Below, piece by piece: positions 27,790-60,024 of a DNA stretch of 64,000 bases; the stretch's first letter is position 1, and each line of letters opens with the position of its first letter. The stretch spans positions 186,001 through 250,000 of the forward strand of contig JAMPEB010000003.1 of assembly GCA_023665475.1 (NCBI GenBank), read 5' to 3'. Below the pieces are notes generated by a model. It saw nothing but the letters and a program-made list of their open reading frames with translations, had not been told where the DNA came from and did not search any database. Origin of the DNA: Lachnoclostridium sp. (GTDB lineage Bacteria > Bacillota > Clostridia > Lachnospirales > Lachnospiraceae). The position numbers were made by a program, and so were the translations under genes.

Positions 27790-28326
27790 TTAGTTAATTT
27801 CCCGGTAGCGGTTTTGCTTAAAATTCAAAAATTCCAAGTCCTGTTCCGTGAACACAAATAAAAACAGGAGAAAGAGCAGTACCGTAGCCACCACAATATA
27901 ACAGTCCGCAACATTAAAAATCGGATAATGAATCAGCACAAAAGAAATAAAATCCACCACATAATCCAGACGAATGCGGTCCGCCATATTGCCAAGCCCG
28001 CCTGCCACGATAACAGACAGCAAAATATGAACGATATTATACTTTTTCTTTTCGGGCAGTTTTAACAGGAAAAATAAAATAACCAGCATAAAAATCACAC
28101 CCACGAACAAAATAAAAAATTTCTGGTTCTGGAGCATTCCGAAAGCAGAACCCCTGTTTTCAAGATATTGCAGCTCCAGCACCCCGTCTATCAGCACATA
28201 AGCGGGGCGGTCTTTTAACTGTTTTACTGCCAGATCCTTTGTGTATTGGTCCGCAAAAAACAAAATAATAATGATAATGGCATCAATAACCAGCATAATG
28301 CCTCTCTTGGTTTTATTTTTACTCAT
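27790..28326 (-). CDS. lspA: Lipoprotein signal peptidase II
   Basis: 178-residue membrane aspartyl protease that removes signal peptides from prolipoproteins. Four hydrophobic helices; the motifs ADQYTKDLA and ENRGSAFG come first, and the catalytic Asp residues lie in GGLGNMADRI (first) and IFNVADCYI (second). The start at 28326 (MSKNKTKRG) overlaps the aroB stop by 8 bases and has GAGGA before it; longer upstream frames run into aroB. C-terminal tail is longer than usual but plain. Confidence 0.95.
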   Translation of the reverse strand: MSKNKTKRGIMLVIDAIIIIILFFADQYTKDLAVKQLKDRPAYVLIDGVLELQYLENRGSAFGMLQNQKFFILFVGVIFMLVILFFLLKLPEKKKYNIVHILLSVIVAGGLGNMADRIRLDYVVDFISFVLIHYPIFNVADCYIVVATVLLFLLFLFVFTEQDLEFLNFKQNRYREIN

Positions 28327-29428
28327 GGGCGTCCTCTTCGCTAAAATAAATTTCCCTAATGGCTGCCAATATTTCCTCATCAGAGACGGTTTTGTCTATC
28401 ACAGCCTTCCCTATTTTTTTCAGCAGCACAAATTTAATTTTGTCCGCCTCCATCTTTTTATCCGATTTGGTCAGCTTCAAAATCTCCTCCGGACATATAC
28501 CCTCCACGGTGATAGGCAGATTGAAGGGAACAAACATATCACGGATTTCATAGTATTCTTCCATAGAAAGCATCTCCCGCTTCCATGAAATATAGGCTGC
28601 CGCCACAGTTCCGAGGGCTACGCACTCCCCGTGGAACAATTCAAAGTTTTTCGCTTTCTCAATGGCATGTCCGATAGTATGCCCCAGATTTAACAAAGCC
28701 CTCTCACCCTGCTCCGTAGGGTCTTTTTCCACTACAGCCTTTTTGATAGCGCAGCTTCGCATCACCATCTCTTCGAGGGTGCCAAAATCCCGTTCTTGGA
28801 TTTCGTACATTTTTTCTATCATCCACTCGTAAAAAGCCGCATCCTTTATGATTCCGTGCTTCATCACTTCCGCAAAACCCGAGAAAAACTGACGCTGGTC
28901 CAAAGTCTTTAATACTGCCACATTCATGTAAACCAGACGGGGCATCTTAAATGCACCCACCATGTTTTTGTAGGAATCAAAATCCACTCCCGTCTTGCCC
29001 CCTACCGAGCTGTCCACCTGAGCCAAAAGAGTGGTCGGAACCTGAATAAAATCAATGCCCCGCAAATAAGTAGCCGCAGTAAATCCCGTCAAATCCCCTA
29101 CTACGCCGCCCCCTAGGGCAAGCAGCATATCCTTGCGGTCAAATCCTTCCTGAATCAGAAATTCATAGACTTTTTTCACATTGTCCAGATTTTTATTTTC
29201 CTCTCCCGCAGGTATGACAAATTTTACCGCCTTTAAGCATTTTCCCGAGATACAGCCAAGCACCTCTTCGCCGTACAGTTTATCCACATTGGAATCCGTC
29301 ACAATACAAAGTCTCTTGTCCCCACCGCCAAGCTCGCTCAGTTCTTCCCAAAGTCCTTTATAAGAGCGGTCAAACACAATGTCATAGCAAGGCTTTTTTT
29401 GATATGATACAGACAGTCTCTGCGCCAT
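28319..29428 (-). CDS. aroB: 3-dehydroquinate synthase
   Basis: 369-residue NAD- and metal-dependent enzyme of the shikimate pathway that converts DAHP to 3-dehydroquinate. Signatures: LALGGGVVGDLTGFTAATYLRG (NAD site), QVPTTLLAQVDSSVGGKTGVD, and metal ligands including LLNLGHTIGHAIE. The start at 29428 has GGAGG 8 bases upstream; the frame extends 12 codons further without support. No other aro gene is nearby. It overlaps lspA by 8 bases. Confidence 0.97.
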   Translation of the reverse strand: MAQRLSVSYQKKPCYDIVFDRSYKGLWEELSELGGGDKRLCIVTDSNVDKLYGEEVLGCISGKCLKAVKFVIPAGEENKNLDNVKKVYEFLIQEGFDRKDMLLALGGGVVGDLTGFTAATYLRGIDFIQVPTTLLAQVDSSVGGKTGVDFDSYKNMVGAFKMPRLVYMNVAVLKTLDQRQFFSGFAEVMKHGIIKDAAFYEWMIEKMYEIQERDFGTLEEMVMRSCAIKKAVVEKDPTEQGERALLNLGHTIGHAIEKAKNFELFHGECVALGTVAAAYISWKREMLSMEEYYEIRDMFVPFNLPITVEGICPEEILKLTKSDKKMEADKIKFVLLKKIGKAVIDKTVSDEEILAAIREIYFSEEDAHE

Positions 29429-48567: not shown

Positions 48568-48573
48568 TCACAC
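48392..48573 (-). repeat. Multi-hairpin intergenic repeat element, family A, copy 2
   Basis: On the minus strand it starts GTGTGAACGGAATGAAGATT, the mutS stop codon TGA being part of it. The first 68 bases match copy 1 at 18639 with about three differences. The middle is different (GAAGAATCCG/CGGATTCTTC and other stems), and the end again shows CTTCACAC and GAAGAACGC/GCGTTCTTC. Confidence 0.85.
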
Positions 48574-51225
48574 CGTCCAACGGTTCTTTAATTTATTCTG
48601 CAAGCGGTACAGTGTATTTAACGCATCTAACGGCGTCATGGTGGAAACCTCCACCTCCATAAGCTCTTTCAGCACATCCTCGTCTGTAACGGTCTCAAAA
48701 AGAGAGATCTGCGCGATATCCACCTCGTCGTATTTGGGCTGCTTTTTCCCCTTGCCGTCTTCCTTATAATCCGCGGCAATGCTCTGTACCTTCTCCGTGA
48801 TGTCATTATCGCTTAACTGTTCCACGATTTCTTTTGCACGGTCGATTACCATATCCGGCACCCCGGCAAGCTTTGCCACCTGAATGCCATAACTTTTATC
48901 CGCGCCGCCCTTTATAATTTTGCGCAAAAACACAATGTCATCCCCGCGCTCTTTCACGGCAATGCAGTAATTGTTTACATTGCTCATCTTGCCTTCCAGC
49001 TCGGTGAGTTCATGGTAATGGGTGGCAAACAAAGTCTTTGCGCCTAAGAGCTTACGGTTACTGATGTGTTCAATCACTGCCCACGCAATGCTCAGTCCGT
49101 CAAAGGTGGAGGTGCCTCTGCCTATTTCATCCAGAATAAGCAGGCTGTCCGCTGTGGCATTTCTAAGGATATTTGCCACCTCATTCATCTCCACCATAAA
49201 AGTGGACTGTCCGCTTGCCAAATCATCGGAAGCCCCCACACGGGTAAAAATCCGGTCCACAATGCCGATATCCGCACTCTTTGCAGGCACAAAACAGCCC
49301 ATCTGCGCCATCAGCACAATCAGCGCCGACTGCCGCATATAAGTGGATTTGCCCGCCATGTTCGGTCCGGTAATAATGCTGATGCAGTGATGATTATTGT
49401 CCAGATAAGTATCGTTTGCGATAAACATATCGTTGGTAATCATCTGCTCCACCACAGGATGCCTGCCGTCCTTAATATTGATGATGCCCTTCTCGTTTAA
49501 CTTCGGCCTCACATAGTGATTGCGCTCAGACACCAGAGAAAGGGATGCATACACATCCAGCCTTGCAATGGCCTTTGCCGTGCGCTGGATTCTCTCAAGC
49601 TCCATGGCAATGGCATCCCTGATTTTACAGAACAAATCATATTCCAGCCCCTGCAGCTTATCCTCCGCATTTAAAATGGTATCCTCCAGCTCCTTTAATT
49701 TTGGCGTGGTATAGCGCTCCGCATTGGCAAGGGTCTGCTTGCGCACATAGTCCTGCGGCACCATATTTTTATAGGAATTGGTCACTTCAAAATAATAGCC
49801 GAATACCTTATTGTATTTAATCTTAAGATTTTTAATGCCCGTCCGTTCTCTGTCTTCCTCTTCCAATTTGGCAAGCCATTCCTTGCCGTCTCGCTTTGCG
49901 CTTCTGAGCATATCAACGGTTTCGTCAAACCCGTCCTTAATAATGCCGCCCTCTCTGATGGTAACAGGGGGTTCCTCATAAATAGCGCTGTCAATCAGGG
50001 CATGAATATCTTCAAGGCCCTCTATTTCCTCATGAATCTTTGTCAATTCTTCCTTTTCAAATTCTTTCAAAACCGTCTTGATATGGGGCAGCATTTCCAA
50101 GGAATTGCGGAAGGCAATCATATCTCTGGGATTTGCTGTCTTATAAGTCACCTTGCCAAGAAGCCGCTCCAAATCATAAATCGGGGCAAGATATTCCCGC
50201 AGTTCATCCCTTGCCACACTGTTTTTACATAATTCTTCAATGGCATCCAGCCGTTTTATCATCTCGTCCTTTTCGATTAAGGGCTGCTCCACAAAACTGC
50301 GAAGCATTCTTCCGCCCATAGCCGTCTTGGTCTTATCAAGAACCCATAAAAGAGAGCCCCTCTTCTGCTTTTCCCTCAAAGTTTCCGTAAGCTCTAAATT
50401 CCTTCTGGTGGAGCTGTCAAGAAGCATATATTTGCTGGTAAGATAAGGCACAATATGGGTGAAATGCGCAAGCTCCGTCTTCTGGGTATCATGTAAATAT
50501 TGTAACATCGCTCCTGCCGCAATCATCCCTAGAGGGAACTCTTCGATGCCAAGTCCCATCAGTGTGTTTACCTTAAAATGCTCAAGCAGCGTCTTCTTAC
50601 AGCCGTCATCATCAAAAAGATGGGGTTCCAGCGCATTGATGGAAATGCGCAGCCGCCCCCTTAAATCCTCGATATCCGCCCCGCTCATTAAAAACGCTTC
50701 ATTACAGATAATCTCGGACGGCGCATACTTCATCATTTCATCATTTAATTTGCGGATGTTTTCCACTTCCGTGAGGTAAAAATCCCCCGTAGTGACATCC
50801 GCCGCAGAAAGCCCAATCTTGGTGGGCGTATAGGCAATGCACATCAAAAAATTATTTTTGGAGGCATCCAGCGCCTGCATATTTAAGTTGGTGCCGGGGG
50901 TCACAATGCGGACCACATCTCTCTTTACAAGCCCCTTTGCCAGCTTCGGATCCTCCATCTGCTCGCAGATTGCCACCTTGTAACCTCTGCTCACTAATTT
51001 TGTAAGATACCCCTCCGCCGCATGGTACGGGATGCCGCACATAGGTGCCCTCTCGTCCAGACCGCAAGCCTTCCCCGTCAGCGTAATTTCAAGTTCTCTG
51101 GATGCAGTTAAGGCATCCTCGAAGAACATCTCATAAAAATCCCCCAGGCGGTAAAAAAGAATACAATCACTATATTGTTTTTTTGTTTCCATGTATTGCT
51201 GCATCATGGGAGTTAATTCCGCCAC
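48568..51225 (-). CDS. mutS: DNA mismatch recognition protein MutS
   Basis: 885 residues. N-terminal mismatch-binding domain with FYRLGDFYEMFFEDA (the Phe-x-Glu region), connector and lever domains, and the ATPase with GPNMAGKSTYMRQ, DEIGRGTSTFDGLSIA and ATHYHELTELEGKM. The start is a GTG at 51225 after CAGGAG; an earlier frame start at 51267 would lie in the upstream terminator. The stop codon overlaps the first bases of a repeat element. mutL follows downstream. Confidence 0.96.
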   Translation of the reverse strand: MAELTPMMQQYMETKKQYSDCILFYRLGDFYEMFFEDALTASRELEITLTGKACGLDERAPMCGIPYHAAEGYLTKLVSRGYKVAICEQMEDPKLAKGLVKRDVVRIVTPGTNLNMQALDASKNNFLMCIAYTPTKIGLSAADVTTGDFYLTEVENIRKLNDEMMKYAPSEIICNEAFLMSGADIEDLRGRLRISINALEPHLFDDDGCKKTLLEHFKVNTLMGLGIEEFPLGMIAAGAMLQYLHDTQKTELAHFTHIVPYLTSKYMLLDSSTRRNLELTETLREKQKRGSLLWVLDKTKTAMGGRMLRSFVEQPLIEKDEMIKRLDAIEELCKNSVARDELREYLAPIYDLERLLGKVTYKTANPRDMIAFRNSLEMLPHIKTVLKEFEKEELTKIHEEIEGLEDIHALIDSAIYEEPPVTIREGGIIKDGFDETVDMLRSAKRDGKEWLAKLEEEDRERTGIKNLKIKYNKVFGYYFEVTNSYKNMVPQDYVRKQTLANAERYTTPKLKELEDTILNAEDKLQGLEYDLFCKIRDAIAMELERIQRTAKAIARLDVYASLSLVSERNHYVRPKLNEKGIINIKDGRHPVVEQMITNDMFIANDTYLDNNHHCISIITGPNMAGKSTYMRQSALIVLMAQMGCFVPAKSADIGIVDRIFTRVGASDDLASGQSTFMVEMNEVANILRNATADSLLILDEIGRGTSTFDGLSIAWAVIEHISNRKLLGAKTLFATHYHELTELEGKMSNVNNYCIAVKERGDDIVFLRKIIKGGADKSYGIQVAKLAGVPDMVIDRAKEIVEQLSDNDITEKVQSIAADYKEDGKGKKQPKYDEVDIAQISLFETVTDEDVLKELMEVEVSTMTPLDALNTLYRLQNKLKNRWTV

Positions 51226-51253
51226 TTTTGTACACTCCTGTTCTATAATACTG

Positions 51254-51289
51254 AAAATCGGATGCACAATCTGTTGCGCACCCGATTTT
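51254..51289 (-). terminator. Hairpin terminator of the VanZ gene
   Basis: Stem AAAATCGGGTGCGCAAC / GTTG... pairing AAAATCGG(A)TGCACAA with TTGCGCA(C)CCGATTTT in the plus orientation, small loop. It is between the VanZ stop and the mutS start. The U-run is partial (TTTTCAGTATT). Confidence 0.65.
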
Positions 51290-51336
51290 ATATTAGCACA
51301 AAATATGGTAGTTGTAAATTATTAGTTTTGGAAAAA

Positions 51337-51903
51337 TCAGGGTTTTTCATCCCCGGCAGCCATCGATACGATTGCATTAGCAACAAAATTTAGCGGCTTA
51401 TATAATACCACCAAAAAGATACCACCTAAAATATTGAGCATTAAGTCGTCCACATCAAATACATGGTTTCTCACCTTAGTTATCAAATTGATTCCCAACT
51501 GAACCACTTCAATGGACAAGCTTGCTACAGCAATAGAAATTACACATTTTACTCTGGAAAGCTCCTGCGCTCTTATCCCTTGTAGTAACAGCGGTAATGG
51601 CATCAAAAGTATAATATTTCCTACTATCTGAATATAATTCTTTTGTTTTGCCATAGAAATTATGCTGGCAAAAGGCTTCCATTGCACTGCTATATAAGAA
51701 GCAGACTCCATCCATGGAAAATGCTCAAAAGTAAAAGGAAATACCGTTACCTTCATAACCAAGAGCAAATAAAGTACAAACAGGCAGCGCCACAATAATA
51801 GTTTCCTTTTTTTCTGCTTTCTCATTATGTAACAGGCAATAAGAATACCCACAATCACAGCATATACAACAAGTAAAACTTGTATGTGAACATCATATAT
51901 CAT
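51337..51903 (-). CDS. VanZ-family membrane protein
   Basis: 188 residues with five or so membrane helices (VLLVVYAVIVGILIACYIMRK; LLLWRCLFVLYLLLVMKVTVFPF; YIQIVGNIILLMPLPLLLQG; a C-terminal helix). The VanZ signature region is NIILLMPLPLLL and, later, FDVDDLMLNILGGIFLVVLY. Single VanZ proteins affect glycopeptide sensitivity in some bacteria; here function is unknown. Start at 51903 with GAGGG upstream. No van cluster is present. Confidence 0.85.
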   Translation of the reverse strand: MIYDVHIQVLLVVYAVIVGILIACYIMRKQKKRKLLLWRCLFVLYLLLVMKVTVFPFTFEHFPWMESASYIAVQWKPFASIISMAKQKNYIQIVGNIILLMPLPLLLQGIRAQELSRVKCVISIAVASLSIEVVQLGINLITKVRNHVFDVDDLMLNILGGIFLVVLYKPLNFVANAIVSMAAGDEKP

Positions 51904-51943
51904 TTTTATGCCCTCATATACCAACGACTTTTAATTTTGCATG

Positions 51944-52339
51944 CTACCATACCCATTCAATCGTAATATCGCCTGTCATTTGGAATCCTGTAAGCTGCCG
52001 TATATATATTCTGTATGTTCCTGCCCCATCTCCTACTAATGTACAACTTCCCGATGTCCTTGCATCAAGTTCATCATCATCCTTTGTACTCCATCCAAGT
52101 AATTTCTTTTTTTCGAGCATCACATATATGGTACCCTCATATACAGAATAACAGTTTGAAGTAGACACTGTAAATGTTGGTGTTGCAGTAGCATCCCAAG
52201 TACGCGCAGAGTACAGTCCTCCTGTCATGTCATAAGTACTTTCATATGACCCCGACTCCGCATATACTAACATTGTAGGCGTAATTACTAACAATAAATT
52301 TAACAGAATCATATTAAACAGTTTTTTTACTTTTTTCAT
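51944..52339 (-). CDS. Small secreted protein of unknown function
   Basis: 131 residues: a signal peptide (KLFNMILLNLLLVITPTMLVYAE), then about 105 residues with many Thr, Ser, Tyr and Gly and probable beta structure (TYDMTGGLYSARTWDATATP, SGSCTLVGDGAGTYRIYI). There is no membrane anchor and no recognisable domain. A GGAGGAATAAAAAT site precedes the ATG. Lies 40 bases upstream of the VanZ gene on the same strand, so they may be coexpressed. Confidence 0.65.
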   Translation of the reverse strand: MKKVKKLFNMILLNLLLVITPTMLVYAESGSYESTYDMTGGLYSARTWDATATPTFTVSTSNCYSVYEGTIYVMLEKKKLLGWSTKDDDELDARTSGSCTLVGDGAGTYRIYIRQLTGFQMTGDITIEWVW

Positions 52340-52872
52340 TATTTTTATTCCTCCATCTTTATCTTTTTTACCCCTTCACCTACAGAAAATAGCTATCTGT
52401 AATTGTTGTGATGCTTTATTTAATTGTCTCATCATAGAATGCTATCAGTTCCTAAGAGTAGAAGCACTCGTCTTATATGCTACTTAAATTTATGTTTATA
52501 TAAGCCTTTAAATCCACTTAATATAGTATCAGATAATACTTCATATTCACCCCCTTATCACCTTTTCACTACCAAATAATTATGCAAGCCAAAGCTTCGT
52601 AATCCCTGAAACACATTTTTCCACAAGACTATGCGCATATCTTGTATTAATAATACATCACTGTAGCGTATTGTGCAAGAGGAATTTTGAAAATTTTTCA
52701 GAATTTTTATCCCATTGCATCTCTTTTTCTTCTCTACACAACCAGAGCAAGCATCTCCTCCGCCTCTTTTCTGTGATGACTTTTCGTCATAAAACGCACA
52801 GAAAAACTGGCTTCTACCCTTCCCAGTTCTCTGCGGAGCAGTTTCTTTTTGTATTTATAAAAAGCTTTTTTC
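52340..52872. other. 533-base AT-rich intergenic region
   Basis: No coding frame with family features or good start signal. AT-rich with short inverted repeats: TACAGA/TCTGTA near 52381-52402, and a branched hairpin at 52767-52805 (TTTTCTGTG/CACAGAAAA around ATGAC/GTCAT) that may end the long permease-lipoprotein gene. Promoter elements for the small secreted gene are expected but I cannot name one. Confidence 0.5.
52767..52805 (-). terminator. Branched hairpin downstream of the permease-lipoprotein gene
   Basis: Outer stem TTTTCTGTG / CACAGAAAA with an inner ATGAC-TTTTC-GTCAT stem. It lies about 70 bases past the stop of the giant gene in the leftward direction. No long U-run follows, so termination is not certain. 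Confidence 0.5.
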
Positions 52873-55800
52873 TCACCCCTGTTCCCTCACATACAAAGAA
52901 ACCCGGTTCTGTATTACCTCTGCCGCTTCCTTTGCGGTCTTCTGTCCGTTAAAGAAGAACGCTGCCTCCTCCTGCAATATCTCATAAATACCCGGCGTCC
53001 GCAAATCTGCCGGCTCCGCATTTTCTATCAGGGTGCGAAGCTGCCCTATCTCCTCCTCCGTTGCCGAATAAATCTCTAAGGTCATGCTTTCATATGGTAT
53101 CGCCGCCATGGGGTCTTCTATGCGCACACCGTTTTCATCCATGTGATACCACTCCACGGACGCCGCTTCAAATGCCTTTTCCAAGGAAGCTTTATACACC
53201 GGAAAACCATCCATAATATTTTCCTCACTTGTATATAAAAGCTTTAAAAATTCCCATGCCGCGTCTTTGTTTTCACATTTCTCAGAGATGCCGAAAGCAT
53301 TTCCGAAAACCATTATTTTGGTTCCGCTTCCGCTTTCCGAGGGGAACCCGATATAGGTGATATCCTCATCAAAAAGAGCATGATTCTGTAAATAGGACAT
53401 GGTACTGTTCATGACCGTGGGATACAATAATAATTCTTCCGAACGCAGTTTTTCTATTCTTTCTTCCATGCCCAAGGAATGGGCATTGCTCGAAAAACGA
53501 TCTGCAAAAGCAAGCAGCGCAAGAAATTCCTCACTGTCAAAGGAGCAGTTTCCCGCCTCCCAATCAATGTAACGCTCCGCATACTGCAATATGATCCGAT
53601 TAAACATTTCTTCTTTGGAAATTCCTGCCGTCACGACCTTTTCATCCGCAAGGCTGTCCACAAAATCCTGATATTCCGAAAGCGTCCAGCCCTTTCTCTG
53701 CCCCAGAACAGAAGACTTCCCAACCATGGAACTTAACCAGAAATGGGTGGGAATGGCATACAAGGCTTCCCCATCCTCATAGGCAGCAACGGCATTTGCC
53801 AGAAAATCTTCCCCGGAAAATTCCGTGCTTTTTGCCAAGAAGGGGGATAAATCCGCGACAATGCCCTGACGGATATAACTTGCTGCATCCACCCCTGCCA
53901 AATCAATCAAATCCGGCGTCTTTCCCGCCGCAATATCCGTCTGAAGACGGTTTTGGCCATCCTCCTGCTCCGTGCTCCCGTAAACCAGAATCTCTATCCG
54001 GTAATCCGAAGACTGTCTGTTAAAGGAATTGACCACTGACCTTATATGGGAATCATCGGAAAACAGGGCAAGGGTCAGCACCTTTTTATCCGCAACAGGC
54101 TCCTCATCCGACAGGCGCACTTTGCGGGCGCATACCCACTGCGCACAGGCCTTTTGGTTTTCATCCTTTGTATTTACCAACACATAGAAAATGCTTTTGT
54201 CCGCCTGCACCATTCCCACAAGCTCCTCCTCGGAAAAGGCAAGTTCCGACAGGGAGAACATTTTTATACTCTCTCCGCTTTCCGAACTATATTCATAAAA
54301 ATCCCCGTCTGCATTGTAATACAGTTTATCCCCGTCCATACCCACCGTAAGAACGGTTTGGTAAGTATTGGGCGGAAGCTTCTTTACCAGGGATTTGCTC
54401 TTACCGTCCGAAGGATCTATCTCGAATAATTCCGTGCTTCCAATTCTATTGCCTCCATCCGTGCCGCTGTCTCCGCCGGCATCTTCCATACTCCGAGCCG
54501 CCGCAAACAACTTTCCGTCCTCCGACAAAGCCATTTCTTGTACAGCCCCCGCTATCTCTGTGCGGAACAGCCTTTTTCCTTGAGGCGAAATTCCTTCCAC
54601 TATAGAACTGATTTTTGCGCTGTACACAGGGGAAAAACTGAAATATAAATTGCCCTCTGCATCCATTGTTACACAGCTTGGATAAGCTGTCCCGCTATTT
54701 ACCATTTCCTCTGCTATCATCCCGGAAATATCATTCCCTGCAAGCAGCTTTCCTTTTTCATCATATTGATTCACGGCAAAAGAAGAAATAATTCCCCGCT
54801 CATCTGTCTCATAAACACCTGCCCAGAAAGTGTTTCCCTCCCCCTTGGCAACCGTTGACACCATGGCATCCCCCGGAATCTCCGGCGCAATTTTCTCTGC
54901 CTCACCGGTATCCGTATCATAACAGGTAATCCCATTGTCTAAAATATCAGAACTCACCGAAATAAGCCCCGCATACAACCGATTCTCTTCATGGAAAAAA
55001 CCAAAGGCGTGACCCTCCATATTTTCCACGGCACAGTGCTCAAAACGGTAGGTATATCTGGCATCCGTCTTATCCGATTTCGTATCGGAATTTTTGCCGC
55101 ATCCCGTGAGCACAAGGCAGATGCAGAGTAAGGATACCGTGACAAGGGAATATCCTGCACTTTTTTTCTTCACTTTCGGGTACAGGCATGCAAGCGCCGT
55201 CAAAACCAGAATAAATAATACAGCCGGAATGGGATTCAATTTACAGATTTGGAACATCGCACTATCCGCCATATCACCCGACCCGAGGGCGTTAAATACC
55301 AGATAGCATCCTGCCGTTCCCGCAAAAAAGCCTGTCAGCGCCGAGCCTGTCACCACCAGAAGATTTTCCCATTTTAACATGGCGGCAAGCTGCCTTCTCG
55401 TCATTCCGATAATCCGCAGCACCACAAATTCCTCCTTCCGTTCGATGAGTCCCATCATCACATGATTAAAGAAACTGATTCCTGCCATGACAGCCGTCAC
55501 CGCCGCCAGACCGCCGCCAAAAAGATAAATCAGGTTTAACATTTCGGAAGCTTCTTTTTTAATTACCTCATAAGATAAATAATACATATCACTGCCTGCC
55601 CGGCTTACAATCTGTTCCACAACGGGTTCTGTGCCGGATACATCCGGGGTATTGACCGCAACTGCGCACAGACGGTACATTCCATCTGCTTTCGGAATAT
55701 TGGCGGAAGGTAAAAAAGTCACTAAGGTTGCATCCAAAAAGGCACACATAAGCGGTACTTCATCCACCACAGCCATAACTTCATATTCCTTTGTCACGGC

Positions 55801-57693
55801 TCCCTGTATATCCGTATAGGCATTATCCTGCTTCACATACTTTACTCCGTCCGGAAAGCTGTCCAATTTAAGGCGTTCCCCGGCATGATAAACGGTTCCG
55901 TTATCCGGAAAGGTTAAATTGGAAACCATGACCACATAATCACCGGACTCAAATTTCTCCCTGTCCAAAGTCCCCTCCAACGCCTTACATTCCTCAAGCG
56001 CCTCAAAATCCACATAATAACGCATTTCCGTCCAGAAAGGCTTGTGGTTTGCTTTTTCCCTTTCCGCAATCTGCCGTTCATAATAAGCCTTTCCCAGCGC
56101 ATTATCTCCCTCCGGCATTTCCCCGTTTTGAAGCAGAGCCTCCACACGCCTTGTAATCTCCTGCTCCTCATTTATGCTGATGCCGTAAGTATAATAATAA
56201 GTCTGTATTGACGCATCGCCGCACTGCTCTTTTAAGCTGTCCGCGACCCTCTCATCCATTTCCCAGATATCGCCGCTCATGCCTAAAGGGGAATGTCCTG
56301 TACGCTCCTCTGAAAGTCCCAGCAGGGAATCACAGTATTCCCTTGTGCCAATCAGAAAGTCCGCCGGCTGCTTCCTGTACAACATATAGCTTGCGGTGGC
56401 AGTTTCCACCAGATTCACCAGACAGGTAAATAAAAGCACCATAACACATACGGACGCCGCCGCCAGAAAAGTACGCCTTCCGTTCCTGCCGATATTGCGC
56501 TTTGCCATCCGAAGAACGGACATTTTTACAGGCTTCCTTTCTTTTTTTACTTTGACCGCACCGGAAAAAACATCTGCATGAACCGGCCCTACCTTTTCCA
56601 AAATCTTTATGGGTTTTCTGATACCCATAAGGACTGCCGCCAGCGCCGCCAAGGCCGCATATAAAATGTGTTCCGGGCGAAATACACAGATGCCGTCCAC
56701 TCCTTTAAAATAATTCTGTAACGCCAAAGGCACCAATACCCCGCAGATTCCCAGCCCGAAAACCGTTCCGAAGAGCAACGCCGTAACATACTGCCGCAGC
56801 GCCTGCAATCCCAAAATCAGACTGCACTGCCCCTTCGTAACGCCCAAAAGCTTCATCTGCCCGAACAGTTTTACATCACGCACCACCGAAATATAATAAA
56901 GGGTATAAATCGTCAGATATACCGCCAGAAATGACGCAAAAAGCAAAAGAAATGTCATATAAGAATTGCTGCTCCCGTTTTTGTCCATCCCGTAAACCGG
57001 ATTTGACATAGTATCACAGTCTGCATCCGGAACTGCTTTTTCCCATGCGGACAAGAGCAGATTGTCAGAAGCTTCCGTATAGGGAAAACGGCAGTATACC
57101 GTCATAACACCCATTCCCACATTTCGCAGAAAGTCTTCCGAAACATATAGATTAGACACTCCCAAAGCTTGGTTTCCCTGGCAGATTCCCGTCACCAGAA
57201 ATTCATTGGTAAGAGTATTTTCATTTATCTTTACATCGAGCTCGATAATATCACCTACTTCGAGCTCCCTGTGGGATGCATAGATTTCATCCACCACAAT
57301 CTCATCCTTTTTTACAGCCCACTTTCCCTGCAGTAACCCGTTAAAGCACCACTCGCAGACCAAAGGCTGCGCATAAGATATCTGCGTCCTGATTCCTGCG
57401 TCTTCCGACACATATCCGATATGCGCTTTATAAGAAATATCTGTAAATGCCGACTGCGCCCGCAGCTTTTCATATTGTTCCTCCGTCACACCAAAATACT
57501 GCCCTTCCGCCACCGTTCCGAAATTCTTAAAATTCTGCTGCCTTAACATAAGCGCCATGGAATCCATCGTGGTAAAAACGCTCATTAAAAATATAATCGT
57601 CATGGAAACCGCCGCTATAATCGCAGCATTCCGTTTTTTATTGGTGTGATAAATGCGCCATGCAATTTTACATACACTCTGAAATGATTTCAT
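52873..57693 (-). CDS. FtsX/MacB-type ABC permease fused to a solute-binding lipoprotein
   Basis: 1606 residues in one frame. Residues 1-840 are a full FtsX-type permease: first helix (AAIIAAVSMTIIFLMSVF), a large outside domain, three helices (about 240-360), then a second half of the same plan (helices near 400-430, 720-830). Residues 841 onward read VKKKSAGYSLVTVSLLCICL then VLTGC, a classic lipoprotein signal with lipobox Cys865. That is followed by a propeller-like region and from about 1180 a family-1 solute-binding fold (TLALFSDDSHIRSVVNSFNR ... GKTPDLIDLAGVDAASYI). The genes are normally separate. Start at 57693 is chosen by GGAG 5 bases upstream. Confidence 0.82.
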   Translation of the reverse strand: MKSFQSVCKIAWRIYHTNKKRNAAIIAAVSMTIIFLMSVFTTMDSMALMLRQQNFKNFGTVAEGQYFGVTEEQYEKLRAQSAFTDISYKAHIGYVSEDAGIRTQISYAQPLVCEWCFNGLLQGKWAVKKDEIVVDEIYASHRELEVGDIIELDVKINENTLTNEFLVTGICQGNQALGVSNLYVSEDFLRNVGMGVMTVYCRFPYTEASDNLLLSAWEKAVPDADCDTMSNPVYGMDKNGSSNSYMTFLLLFASFLAVYLTIYTLYYISVVRDVKLFGQMKLLGVTKGQCSLILGLQALRQYVTALLFGTVFGLGICGVLVPLALQNYFKGVDGICVFRPEHILYAALAALAAVLMGIRKPIKILEKVGPVHADVFSGAVKVKKERKPVKMSVLRMAKRNIGRNGRRTFLAAASVCVMVLLFTCLVNLVETATASYMLYRKQPADFLIGTREYCDSLLGLSEERTGHSPLGMSGDIWEMDERVADSLKEQCGDASIQTYYYTYGISINEEQEITRRVEALLQNGEMPEGDNALGKAYYERQIAEREKANHKPFWTEMRYYVDFEALEECKALEGTLDREKFESGDYVVMVSNLTFPDNGTVYHAGERLKLDSFPDGVKYVKQDNAYTDIQGAVTKEYEVMAVVDEVPLMCAFLDATLVTFLPSANIPKADGMYRLCAVAVNTPDVSGTEPVVEQIVSRAGSDMYYLSYEVIKKEASEMLNLIYLFGGGLAAVTAVMAGISFFNHVMMGLIERKEEFVVLRIIGMTRRQLAAMLKWENLLVVTGSALTGFFAGTAGCYLVFNALGSGDMADSAMFQICKLNPIPAVLFILVLTALACLYPKVKKKSAGYSLVTVSLLCICLVLTGCGKNSDTKSDKTDARYTYRFEHCAVENMEGHAFGFFHEENRLYAGLISVSSDILDNGITCYDTDTGEAEKIAPEIPGDAMVSTVAKGEGNTFWAGVYETDERGIISSFAVNQYDEKGKLLAGNDISGMIAEEMVNSGTAYPSCVTMDAEGNLYFSFSPVYSAKISSIVEGISPQGKRLFRTEIAGAVQEMALSEDGKLFAAARSMEDAGGDSGTDGGNRIGSTELFEIDPSDGKSKSLVKKLPPNTYQTVLTVGMDGDKLYYNADGDFYEYSSESGESIKMFSLSELAFSEEELVGMVQADKSIFYVLVNTKDENQKACAQWVCARKVRLSDEEPVADKKVLTLALFSDDSHIRSVVNSFNRQSSDYRIEILVYGSTEQEDGQNRLQTDIAAGKTPDLIDLAGVDAASYIRQGIVADLSPFLAKSTEFSGEDFLANAVAAYEDGEALYAIPTHFWLSSMVGKSSVLGQRKGWTLSEYQDFVDSLADEKVVTAGISKEEMFNRIILQYAERYIDWEAGNCSFDSEEFLALLAFADRFSSNAHSLGMEERIEKLRSEELLLYPTVMNSTMSYLQNHALFDEDITYIGFPSESGSGTKIMVFGNAFGISEKCENKDAAWEFLKLLYTSEENIMDGFPVYKASLEKAFEAASVEWYHMDENGVRIEDPMAAIPYESMTLEIYSATEEEIGQLRTLIENAEPADLRTPGIYEILQEEAAFFFNGQKTAKEAAEVIQNRVSLYVREQG

Positions 57694-57768
57694 CCTTTCT
57701 CCCATTCCGCCGCGCAAGCGGCATTTTAATCAGTGGGAACTTTGGGACGCACGGCGTCACAAATTCCG

Positions 57769-57832
57769 AGATTGAAAATTTCTAATTTTCAATCTTATAC
57801 CCCCTGCATATCGCAGGCTTCCGCCTGCGATA
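57769..57832. repeat. Two hairpins between the ABC ATPase and permease genes
   Basis: AGATTGAAAATT/AATTTTCAATCT with a 3-base loop (57769-57795), and TATCGCAGGC/GCCTGCGATA with a TTCC loop (57809-57832). They lie in the 173-base gap in a leftward operon. No U-run follows either, so they probably act on mRNA stability or are remnants of a hairpin repeat. Confidence 0.7.
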
Positions 57833-57866
57833 CTGCTACCAATGAAGAGTTTGAAAGTTTACCCGC

Positions 57867-58535
57867 TCATGCCGCCAAACTCCCATCCTTCATCACTAAA
57901 ATGCGGTTACATCTTTTAGCAAGCGATTCATTATGAGTAATCATCACTATAGTTTGTCCAAATTCTTTCACTGACTTTTCAAATAAATCCATCACATCAT
58001 TTCCCGTATCCGAATCCAGACTACCTGTGGGCTCGTCCGCCAGAATCACGGCAGGCTTCGGGGCAAGCGCCCTCGCAATGGCAGTCCGCTGGTTCTGTCC
58101 GCCGGATAACTGCGACGGCAGCCTGTTTTCCAATCCCGCAAGTCCCAAAAATGCAATTACTTTTTTCACATATTCTTCGTCCGCATCCTTTCCGCCGATT
58201 TGAATGGGCAAAACGATATTTTCATAAACACTCATCATGGGCAGCAGATTAAAATTTTGAAATACAAACCCAATCCGCTCCCTCCTGAATACAGTAAGCT
58301 CGTCATCCGACATTCCTTTTAACGCTTTCCCGTCAATAAACACTTCGCCGCTTGTGGGAATATCAAGCCCGCCCAAAATATTTAAAAATGTGGTTTTCCC
58401 GCTTCCCGAAGCCCCCACAACAGATACAAATTCACCCTTTTCAATTTCCACATTGACATTTTTCAAAGCCCTGACGATTGTTTCCCCACTCCCATAATCC
58501 CTGCACACCTGATGCATTTTTGCAATAACTCCCAT
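57867..58535 (-). CDS. ABC transporter ATP-binding protein (LolD/MacB type)
   Basis: 222 residues. Walker A GASGSGKTTF, Q-loop VFQNFNLLP, signature LSGGQNQRTAIARAL (Asn where Gln is usual in QQR), Walker B VILADEPTGSLDSDTG, and H-loop MITHN. This subclass powers FtsX-type permeases and mechanotransmission rather than import. AGGAGG precedes the start at 58535. It is upstream of the permease-lipoprotein gene and surely its ATPase. Confidence 0.93.
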   Translation of the reverse strand: MGVIAKMHQVCRDYGSGETIVRALKNVNVEIEKGEFVSVVGASGSGKTTFLNILGGLDIPTSGEVFIDGKALKGMSDDELTVFRRERIGFVFQNFNLLPMMSVYENIVLPIQIGGKDADEEYVKKVIAFLGLAGLENRLPSQLSGGQNQRTAIARALAPKPAVILADEPTGSLDSDTGNDVMDLFEKSVKEFGQTIVMITHNESLAKRCNRILVMKDGSLAA

Positions 58536-58563
58536 ACCCATACCTCCTTATTTTTGCCCTCTG

Positions 58564-60024
58564 TCAGGCAATTCCTACATCAATCATCCTTCCCATATAA
58601 TAAAATCCATGGCATTCATCCAAGGATACCTTCACGATTTTTCCGATTAAGGATGCGTCCCCCGGAAAATGGACAAGGGTATTATTGGAAAGCCTTCCGG
58701 TCATTAACTTAGGATCATGGTCGCTCACTTCCTCCACCAAAGCTTCCATTATCTGTCCCTGATAACCTAAAACCTTTTCTCTGGCGGTATCCTGCACCGT
58801 CTTTAGCACCCTGTCAAAATTTACCTTTACTTCCTCCTCCGGCACTTGATTCTCCATTGCCGCGGCAGGGGTTCCCGTCCTCTTGGAATAGATAAAGGTA
58901 AAAGCGTTGTCAAAACGCACTCTGCGGATAACATCAATGGTTTCTTCCACATCCTCTTTTGTTTCCCCCGGAAATCCCACAATAATATCCGTTGTAATGG
59001 CAATATCCGGAATTTCCTGCCGGATGCGGTTTGCAAGGTCTATGTACTGTTCCTTGGTATAGCGGCGGTTCATTGCCGTGAGGATTTTAGTGGAGCCGGA
59101 CTGTAAGGGCAGATGTAAATGCCTGCATATCTTCCCAGAACACTTCATCACCTGAATCAGTTCTTCCGATAAATCCTTGGGATGGGAAGTCATGAAGCGA
59201 ATGCGCTTTATGCCCTCAATCTTTTCTATCTCTTCCAGAAGTTCGGCAAAAGTAACGGGGCTGTCCAGATTCTTTCCATAAGAATTCACATTTTGTCCCA
59301 AAAGCATGATTTCCACCACGCCGTCCGCCGCCAGTTTTTCCACCTCTCTGATAATATCTTTGGGGTTCCTGCTGCGCTCGCGCCCTCTGACATAGGGAAC
59401 GATACAATAGCTGCAGAAATTATTACAGCCAAACATAATATTGATGCCTGATTTAAAAGGATATTTGCGTTCCACGGGAAGGTTCTCCACGATAGTGTCC
59501 GTTCCTTCCCAGATATCAGCCACCCTGTCATTTGTGTCAAGCACAGTACATAAAAGCTCCGGAAATTTATAAATATTATGGGTTCCGAACATCAAATCCA
59601 CGAATGCGTAACTGGTCTTTATTTTTTCAATTACGGAAGGCTCCTGCATCATGCAGCCGCAGAGGGCAATTTTCATTTCGGGATTCTTTTTCTTATAACC
59701 GTTTAAAACCCCTAATCTGCCATAGACCTTCTGATTAGCATTGTCCCTGACCGTACAGGTATTGTAAATCACAAAGTCCGCATTTTCATCTTCTGTCATC
59801 TCATATCCCGACAATTTTAAAATGCCTGCCAGCTTCTCGGAATCTCTCGCATTCATCTGACACCCGAAATTGACTACACAGGCCGTAGGAGTGCGCCCGT
59901 TTTTCTGCTTGAAGGCTTCCACCCATTTCCTGCACTTTGCTATAAAATAATACTGCCTGTCCGGCTCCTCCATGGGGGATTCCTTCTTTAAATCTATCCG
60001 GCTTAAATCCATTTCGTTATACAT
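58564..60024 (-). CDS. miaB: tRNA-2-methylthio-N6-dimethylallyladenosine synthase
   Basis: 486 residues, radical-SAM methylthiotransferase acting on the product of MiaA. N-terminal UPF0004 domain with three Cys for an auxiliary cluster (NFGCQMNARDSE, YNTCTVRD, LCGCMMQ), radical-SAM CxxxCxxC in FGCNNFCSYCIVPYVRG, and a C-terminal TRAM domain (about 410-480). The N-terminal 40 residues are an extension. Likely the last function-matched partner of miaA at 45 kb. Downstream lies the ABC ATPase gene (28 bases). Confidence 0.96.
   Translation of the reverse strand: MYNEMDLSRIDLKKESPMEEPDRQYYFIAKCRKWVEAFKQKNGRTPTACVVNFGCQMNARDSEKLAGILKLSGYEMTEDENADFVIYNTCTVRDNANQKVYGRLGVLNGYKKKNPEMKIALCGCMMQEPSVIEKIKTSYAFVDLMFGTHNIYKFPELLCTVLDTNDRVADIWEGTDTIVENLPVERKYPFKSGINIMFGCNNFCSYCIVPYVRGRERSRNPKDIIREVEKLAADGVVEIMLLGQNVNSYGKNLDSPVTFAELLEEIEKIEGIKRIRFMTSHPKDLSEELIQVMKCSGKICRHLHLPLQSGSTKILTAMNRRYTKEQYIDLANRIRQEIPDIAITTDIIVGFPGETKEDVEETIDVIRRVRFDNAFTFIYSKRTGTPAAAMENQVPEEEVKVNFDRVLKTVQDTAREKVLGYQGQIMEALVEEVSDHDPKLMTGRLSNNTLVHFPGDASLIGKIVKVSLDECHGFYYMGRMIDVGIA

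Follow-up and report, generated by a model that had tools for sequence, protein, structure and literature searches.

An FtsX/MacB-type permease and a solute-binding lipoprotein are encoded in one unbroken reading frame in the window, the 64,000-nucleotide stretch of a Lachnoclostridium genome that was analysed here. Together with the ABC ATPase encoded beside it, the fused gene probably constitutes a stand-alone two-gene Type VII ABC system, in which the permease is translated with its extracytoplasmic lipoprotein partner as a C-terminal part.

Domain architecture of the fused frame

ORF analysis places the start of the 1606-codon frame at an ATG at position 57693, with an alternative TTG start 24 bases 5' of it, and the full product has a predicted mass of 178 kDa. 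Pfam recognises FtsX (PF02687) in two stretches, at 64.5 bits (cut-off 25.5), and, C-terminally, SBP_bac_1 at 45.2 bits (cut-off 26) as well as SBP_bac_8. The single ORF, its Pfam domains and the recurrence of the frame in a sister species confirm the observation, made in a sequence-only reading of this DNA, that a permease and a solute-binding lipoprotein share one frame; its claims that an intact lipoprotein signal begins inside the frame at V841 and that an ATPase gene lies next to it hold as well (Table 1).

Table 1. Features of the fused locus and of related clusters (window positions unless a contig is named)
Feature	Location	Strand	Description
Fused ORF, 1606 aa	52873..57693	-	Type VII (FtsX/MacB-like) permease, internal lipoprotein signal, propeller-like domain, family-1 solute-binding domain
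Permease part, residues 1-843	55165..57693	-	Two MacB-type units, 8 predicted membrane helices, two large extracellular domains
V841 GTG	55171..55173	-	Aligns with the start region of stand-alone lipoproteins; no Shine-Dalgarno
Internal lipoprotein signal, V841-Cys865	55099..55173	-	VKKK, hydrophobic core, LTGC lipobox (from sequence)
A7 run (T on + strand)	55161..55167	-	Identical in the sister species
Beta-propeller-like domain, residues ~880-1193	54115..55056	-	All-beta AlphaFold model; profile matches
Family-1 solute-binding domain, residues ~1203-1606	52876..54087	-	SBP_bac_1; fold match CbpC 7x0o
ABC ATPase of the system, 224 aa	57867..58541	-	LolD/MacB/FtsE type by profile match
Spacer, 150 bases, ATPase to fused gene	57717..57866	.	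Dispersed repeat sequence; absent from the sister species
RiPP-like cluster (G485)	L099 3070-13476		Two radical SAM, S8 domain, solute-binding lipoprotein
RiPP-like cluster (G406)	L063 5324-13842		Two radical SAM, S8 domain, solute-binding lipoprotein
RiPP-like cluster (G440)	L119 5620-12719		Two radical SAM, S8 domain, solute-binding lipoprotein

Both components of a Type VII system, an FtsX permease domain and a cognate ABC ATPase, are present at the locus. The AlphaFold model of the permease part (mean pLDDT 73, from 18 sequences), which lends moderate confidence to the helix count, has long helices at residues 19-58, 232-272, 287-328, 340-367, 405-431, 708-751, 766-804 and 822-844, and these stand beside large extracellular domains in the manner of the MacB fold. 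The best full-length fold match found by Foldseek was E. coli YbbP (TM 0.53), with LolE and MacB also matched, and the best PDB match by sequence profile was B. subtilis YtrF (9o9x). The intergenic spacer between the ATPase gene and the fused gene is a dispersed, partly palindromic repeat (palindromic arms; 42 matches in the genome), and the two genes overlap by 4 bases at this place in the sister species.

Bacterial lipoproteins carry an N-terminal signal peptide followed by a lipobox with its cysteine; in the fused protein the LTGC lipobox with Cys865 follows a signal that is internal (residues 841-865). The lipobox cysteine is invariant across the aligned lipoproteins (24 of 24), and genes for both Lgt and LspA were found in the genome. 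The sole match to LspA (signal peptidase II) in this genome lies within the window, at 27790-28380. The AlphaFold model of the lipoprotein half has a pLDDT of 83; besides the solute-binding domain that had been recognised earlier, the half contains a beta-propeller-like domain that had been missed, with profile matches to PQQ/NHL-type propeller chains such as 7eq5, 1rwi and Pizza6. The solute-binding domain is nearest in fold to CbpC (TM 0.72, by target length). The run of seven A's described as lying at the joint does exist but sits just 3' of the GTG, within the lipoprotein part.

Conservation and origin of the fusion

The same fused ORF, 1622 aa long, is found in an independently assembled MAG of a sister Lachnoclostridium species (G487 and L038 being one record, counted once). 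Over 1605 aligned codons the two genes are 91.8% identical in DNA and 91.0% identical in protein, with 225.6 synonymous versus 171.4 non-synonymous differences (dS 0.25, dN 0.047), and all indels between them are multiples of three. The permease part (dN 0.035, dS 0.228) and the solute-binding part (dN 0.022, dS 0.198) each bear the signature of purifying selection, and the propeller part evolves faster (dN 0.117, dS 0.423).

Because the same frame is present in the sister species, the fusion is no assembly error. An assembly or sequencing error, or an indel that arose recently at the strain level, might be suspected from the A7 homopolymer near the joint, but with 8% nucleotide divergence over the gene between two independent assemblies it is refuted unless both carry one shared error, and is thus highly improbable. 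The joint, the GTG and the A7 run are identical in both genomes, and one A more or fewer in the run does not restore two genes, but creates a stop only at residue 875 or 913 and destroys the lipoprotein signal as a continuation of the frame. Of the two origins first proposed, a true fusion or a recent indel, the indel in this run was therefore rejected, and the fusion is favoured by the frame in two species and by the lack of a ribosome-binding site at V841.

A different one-base change points to how the fusion may have arisen. With one A fewer in CCGAAAGTG, just 5' of the GTG, the permease would end ...LYPK-stop, with the TGA overlapping the GTG, and Tyr-Pro at the permease end is common to the permeases of two relatives, G406 and G370. 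This overlap and the shared Tyr-Pro suggest that, before the two species diverged, insertion of a single base turned an ancestral stop-start overlap into the fusion. Extra constraint at the joint was considered and rejected: the longest run free of synonymous change lies across the joint (836-873), but its length of 38 codons is not significant, since mutS has a run of 40. As the fusion is known in two species only, conservation of the joint and lipobox could reflect the short divergence, and because these two carriers are close relatives, lipobox conservation is weak evidence for processing.

Separate homologues in relatives

Alignment with homologues, proposed earlier as a check on whether the halves occur as separate neighbours, was carried out in a survey of 138 genomes of the genus. 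In two more distant relatives, G406 and G485, both halves are encoded by separate genes within one locus; as far as gene order goes, the permease-lipoprotein pairing thus exists without fusion. In G406 the ATPase, the permease (32% identity) and a solute-binding lipoprotein without the propeller (39%) are three genes in a row, and the lipoprotein has a Shine-Dalgarno and a TTG start of its own, 27 bases beyond the stop of the permease; in G485 the permease (52%) and a propeller lipoprotein (50%) are separate genes of one cluster, on either side of an MsbA-like exporter. Frames that seemed to be long in G485 (2158), G344 (1651) and G406 (1326) were considered as further fusions and rejected, the ORFs being separate genes.

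The pairing had been called unusual, which is right with regard to known families, but these relatives hold the two halves as neighbouring separate genes. The partnership is not exclusive, because related lipoproteins also lie beside other ABC systems or beside no ABC system, and the architecture of the partner varies, as the propeller-less lipoprotein of G406 shows. Among the remoter FtsX-permease relatives in the family, those that were checked have an ATPase and no adjoining lipoprotein of this kind. Other arrangements include, in G508 (L100, 7157-14863), an ABC ATPase and a 316-aa protein without Pfam match that are followed by three propeller/solute-binding lipoproteins of the family, and a family lipoprotein directly after a related ATPase (62% identity) at a contig edge in G490 (L102, 4297-7020), with no permease between. 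Elsewhere (L041, 8611-10011), an ABC ATPase has an N-terminal extension of ~200 aa to which no Pfam model matches.

Genomic context

In the clusters of G406 and G485, the module with the separate halves is accompanied by a pair of radical SAM enzymes, a small ORF containing Cys and an S8 protease. Models for PapB and the mycofactocin maturase are among the nearest NCBIfam matches of the radical SAM enzymes, and no match reaches the cut-off; the small ORF, a candidate precursor of 63-64 aa, is similar in the two clusters, with ELDTT, ACMHV and YDRQYMP in common; and the protease is QhpE-like in G406 and fused to the ATPase in G485, where an S8 (subtilisin-like) domain and an ABC ATPase occupy one ORF (L099, 5622-7034). 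The cluster of G440 has an S8 domain, two radical SAM enzymes, an exporter and a related lipoprotein, and no FtsX permease. The MsbA-like exporter is found in G485 and G440, and the candidate precursor together with the FtsX module in G406 and G485. By their gene content, all three look like RiPP clusters.

A radical SAM maturase with a precursor nearby, as in a RiPP cluster, is present around the separate homologues but not in the window genome, where no cognate peptide cluster was found and the sole radical SAM match is distant (25% identity) and on another contig. A search for radical SAM enzymes in 397 genomes of the family gave no match at E<=1e-60. The window module sits alone between miaB and mutS, and was probably inserted there, since miaB and mutS lie close to each other in two relatives from the genus and in genomes from other families. 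Inspection of sequence recognised no kinase beside the module among the flanking ORFs (48568-60024).

Comparison with known systems

Type VII systems typically act with an extracytoplasmic partner that defines their function (PMC12646458). Like E. coli YbbAP-TesA, with its periplasmic esterase, the window system has two MacB-type units, two extracellular domains, a separate ATPase and an extracytoplasmic partner; unlike YbbAP-TesA, its partner is a solute-binding lipoprotein and is fused. Whereas YbbP has 10 membrane helices, the window permease has 8 in the model, at moderate confidence, and the fused protein scores 13.1 bits with the YbbP equivalog model against a cut-off of 999. The BceAB-type antimicrobial peptide transporters likewise have a Type VII permease and an ATPase, and share a plausible peptide-related role, but BceB has 10 helices, one extracellular domain and a histidine kinase partner, as opposed to the two extracellular domains and eight modelled helices seen here. 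B. subtilis YtrEF also combines an FtsX-family permease with an ATPase, although YtrF, unlike the window permease, is a single-unit protein of 436 aa to which no binding domain is fused.

Type I importers such as GlnPQ are a known case of permeases with fused binding domains (PMC8025302). GlnPQ resembles the window fusion in the covalent link between solute-binding domain and membrane subunit, but differs in its Type I importer fold; the window fusion has an intact lipoprotein signal at the join. The C-terminal domain has the fold of the family-1 sugar-binding proteins CbpC and Lmo0181; unlike the systems of such proteins, the locus has no MalF/MalG-type permease and has the extra propeller-like domain. 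A literature search, of a breadth that leaves absence unproven, turned up no permease-lipoprotein fusion reported for a Type VII system and none that contains an internal lipobox.

Translation, processing and mechanism

A single translation product is likely, because the V841 GTG is without the ribosome-binding site that is present in the stand-alone homologues. The Shine-Dalgarno duplex energy at this codon is +0.8 kcal/mol; random coding positions have a median of -3.1 kcal/mol, and the homologues of G485, G406 and G508 lie between -8.0 and -12.3 kcal/mol. The suggestion in the sequence-only reading that the GTG would serve as a lipoprotein start agrees with its position, which lines up with the start region of stand-alone lipoproteins, but is not supported by the Shine-Dalgarno energy. 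Initiation at this codon would give two products and make the in-frame overlap incidental, and the sequence GTGA would suit an ancestral stop-start overlap, but it is quite unlikely: besides the missing Shine-Dalgarno, there is now no stop codon at the joint to permit re-initiation, and promoter- and terminator-like sites in the joint region are no commoner than in shuffled sequence.

Since the eight predicted helices put both ends of the permease in the cytosol, the old signal peptide would form a ninth helix, carrying the C-terminal domains outside, beside the extracellular domains of the permease. Lgt and LspA could then lipidate Cys865 and cleave before it, which would leave parts of about 96 and 82 kDa. 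Such release by signal peptidase II at the internal lipobox, freeing permease and lipoprotein 1:1 from one precursor, is plausible because the lipobox is intact and canonical and both enzymes are present, and its chances seem nearly even. The main rival to cleavage is a stable tether, the two being versions of the same best explanation: with no cut at Cys865, permease and lipoprotein would stay joined, and the covalently attached solute-binding part would have a raised local concentration, as in GlnPQ. One frame with no internal start signal fits a tether, as do the Type I precedents, but the retained lipobox and the presence of Lgt and LspA make processing plausible, so that permanent attachment seems possible though rather doubtful. 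It is unlikely that the C-terminal half belongs to a carbohydrate importer as its sugar-binding protein and was joined to the permease only by accident. The family-1 fold, closest to CbpC, and a paralogue in the same genome beside two multi-helix proteins, MalF/MalG-like by inspection, are in keeping with such an origin, but in two relatives the separately encoded halves are again together, beside the ATPase. Of the components of a CUT1 sugar importer, the locus has the family-1 solute-binding protein, and its permease is FtsX-type rather than MalF/MalG.

The favoured two-gene system would, if it works as other Type VII systems do, use ATP binding to shift its extracellular domains and thereby act upon a ligand held by the lipoprotein. 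This ligand may be a small modified peptide, for removal, sensing or immunity, judging only from the clusters of the separate homologues; the fold itself is that of sugar binders.

Implications

What defines a Type VII ABC system is largely its extracytoplasmic partner, and the locus suggests a solute-binding lipoprotein, here joined to the permease, as one such partner; the fusion provides good evidence of their working together. Furthermore, the locus points to the RiPP-like clusters of relatives, of which the module seems to be the transport or immunity unit. The fusion also provides a natural case for testing if an internal signal is open to the lipoprotein pathway; should it be, an internal lipobox would serve as a processing site in a multi-spanning protein.
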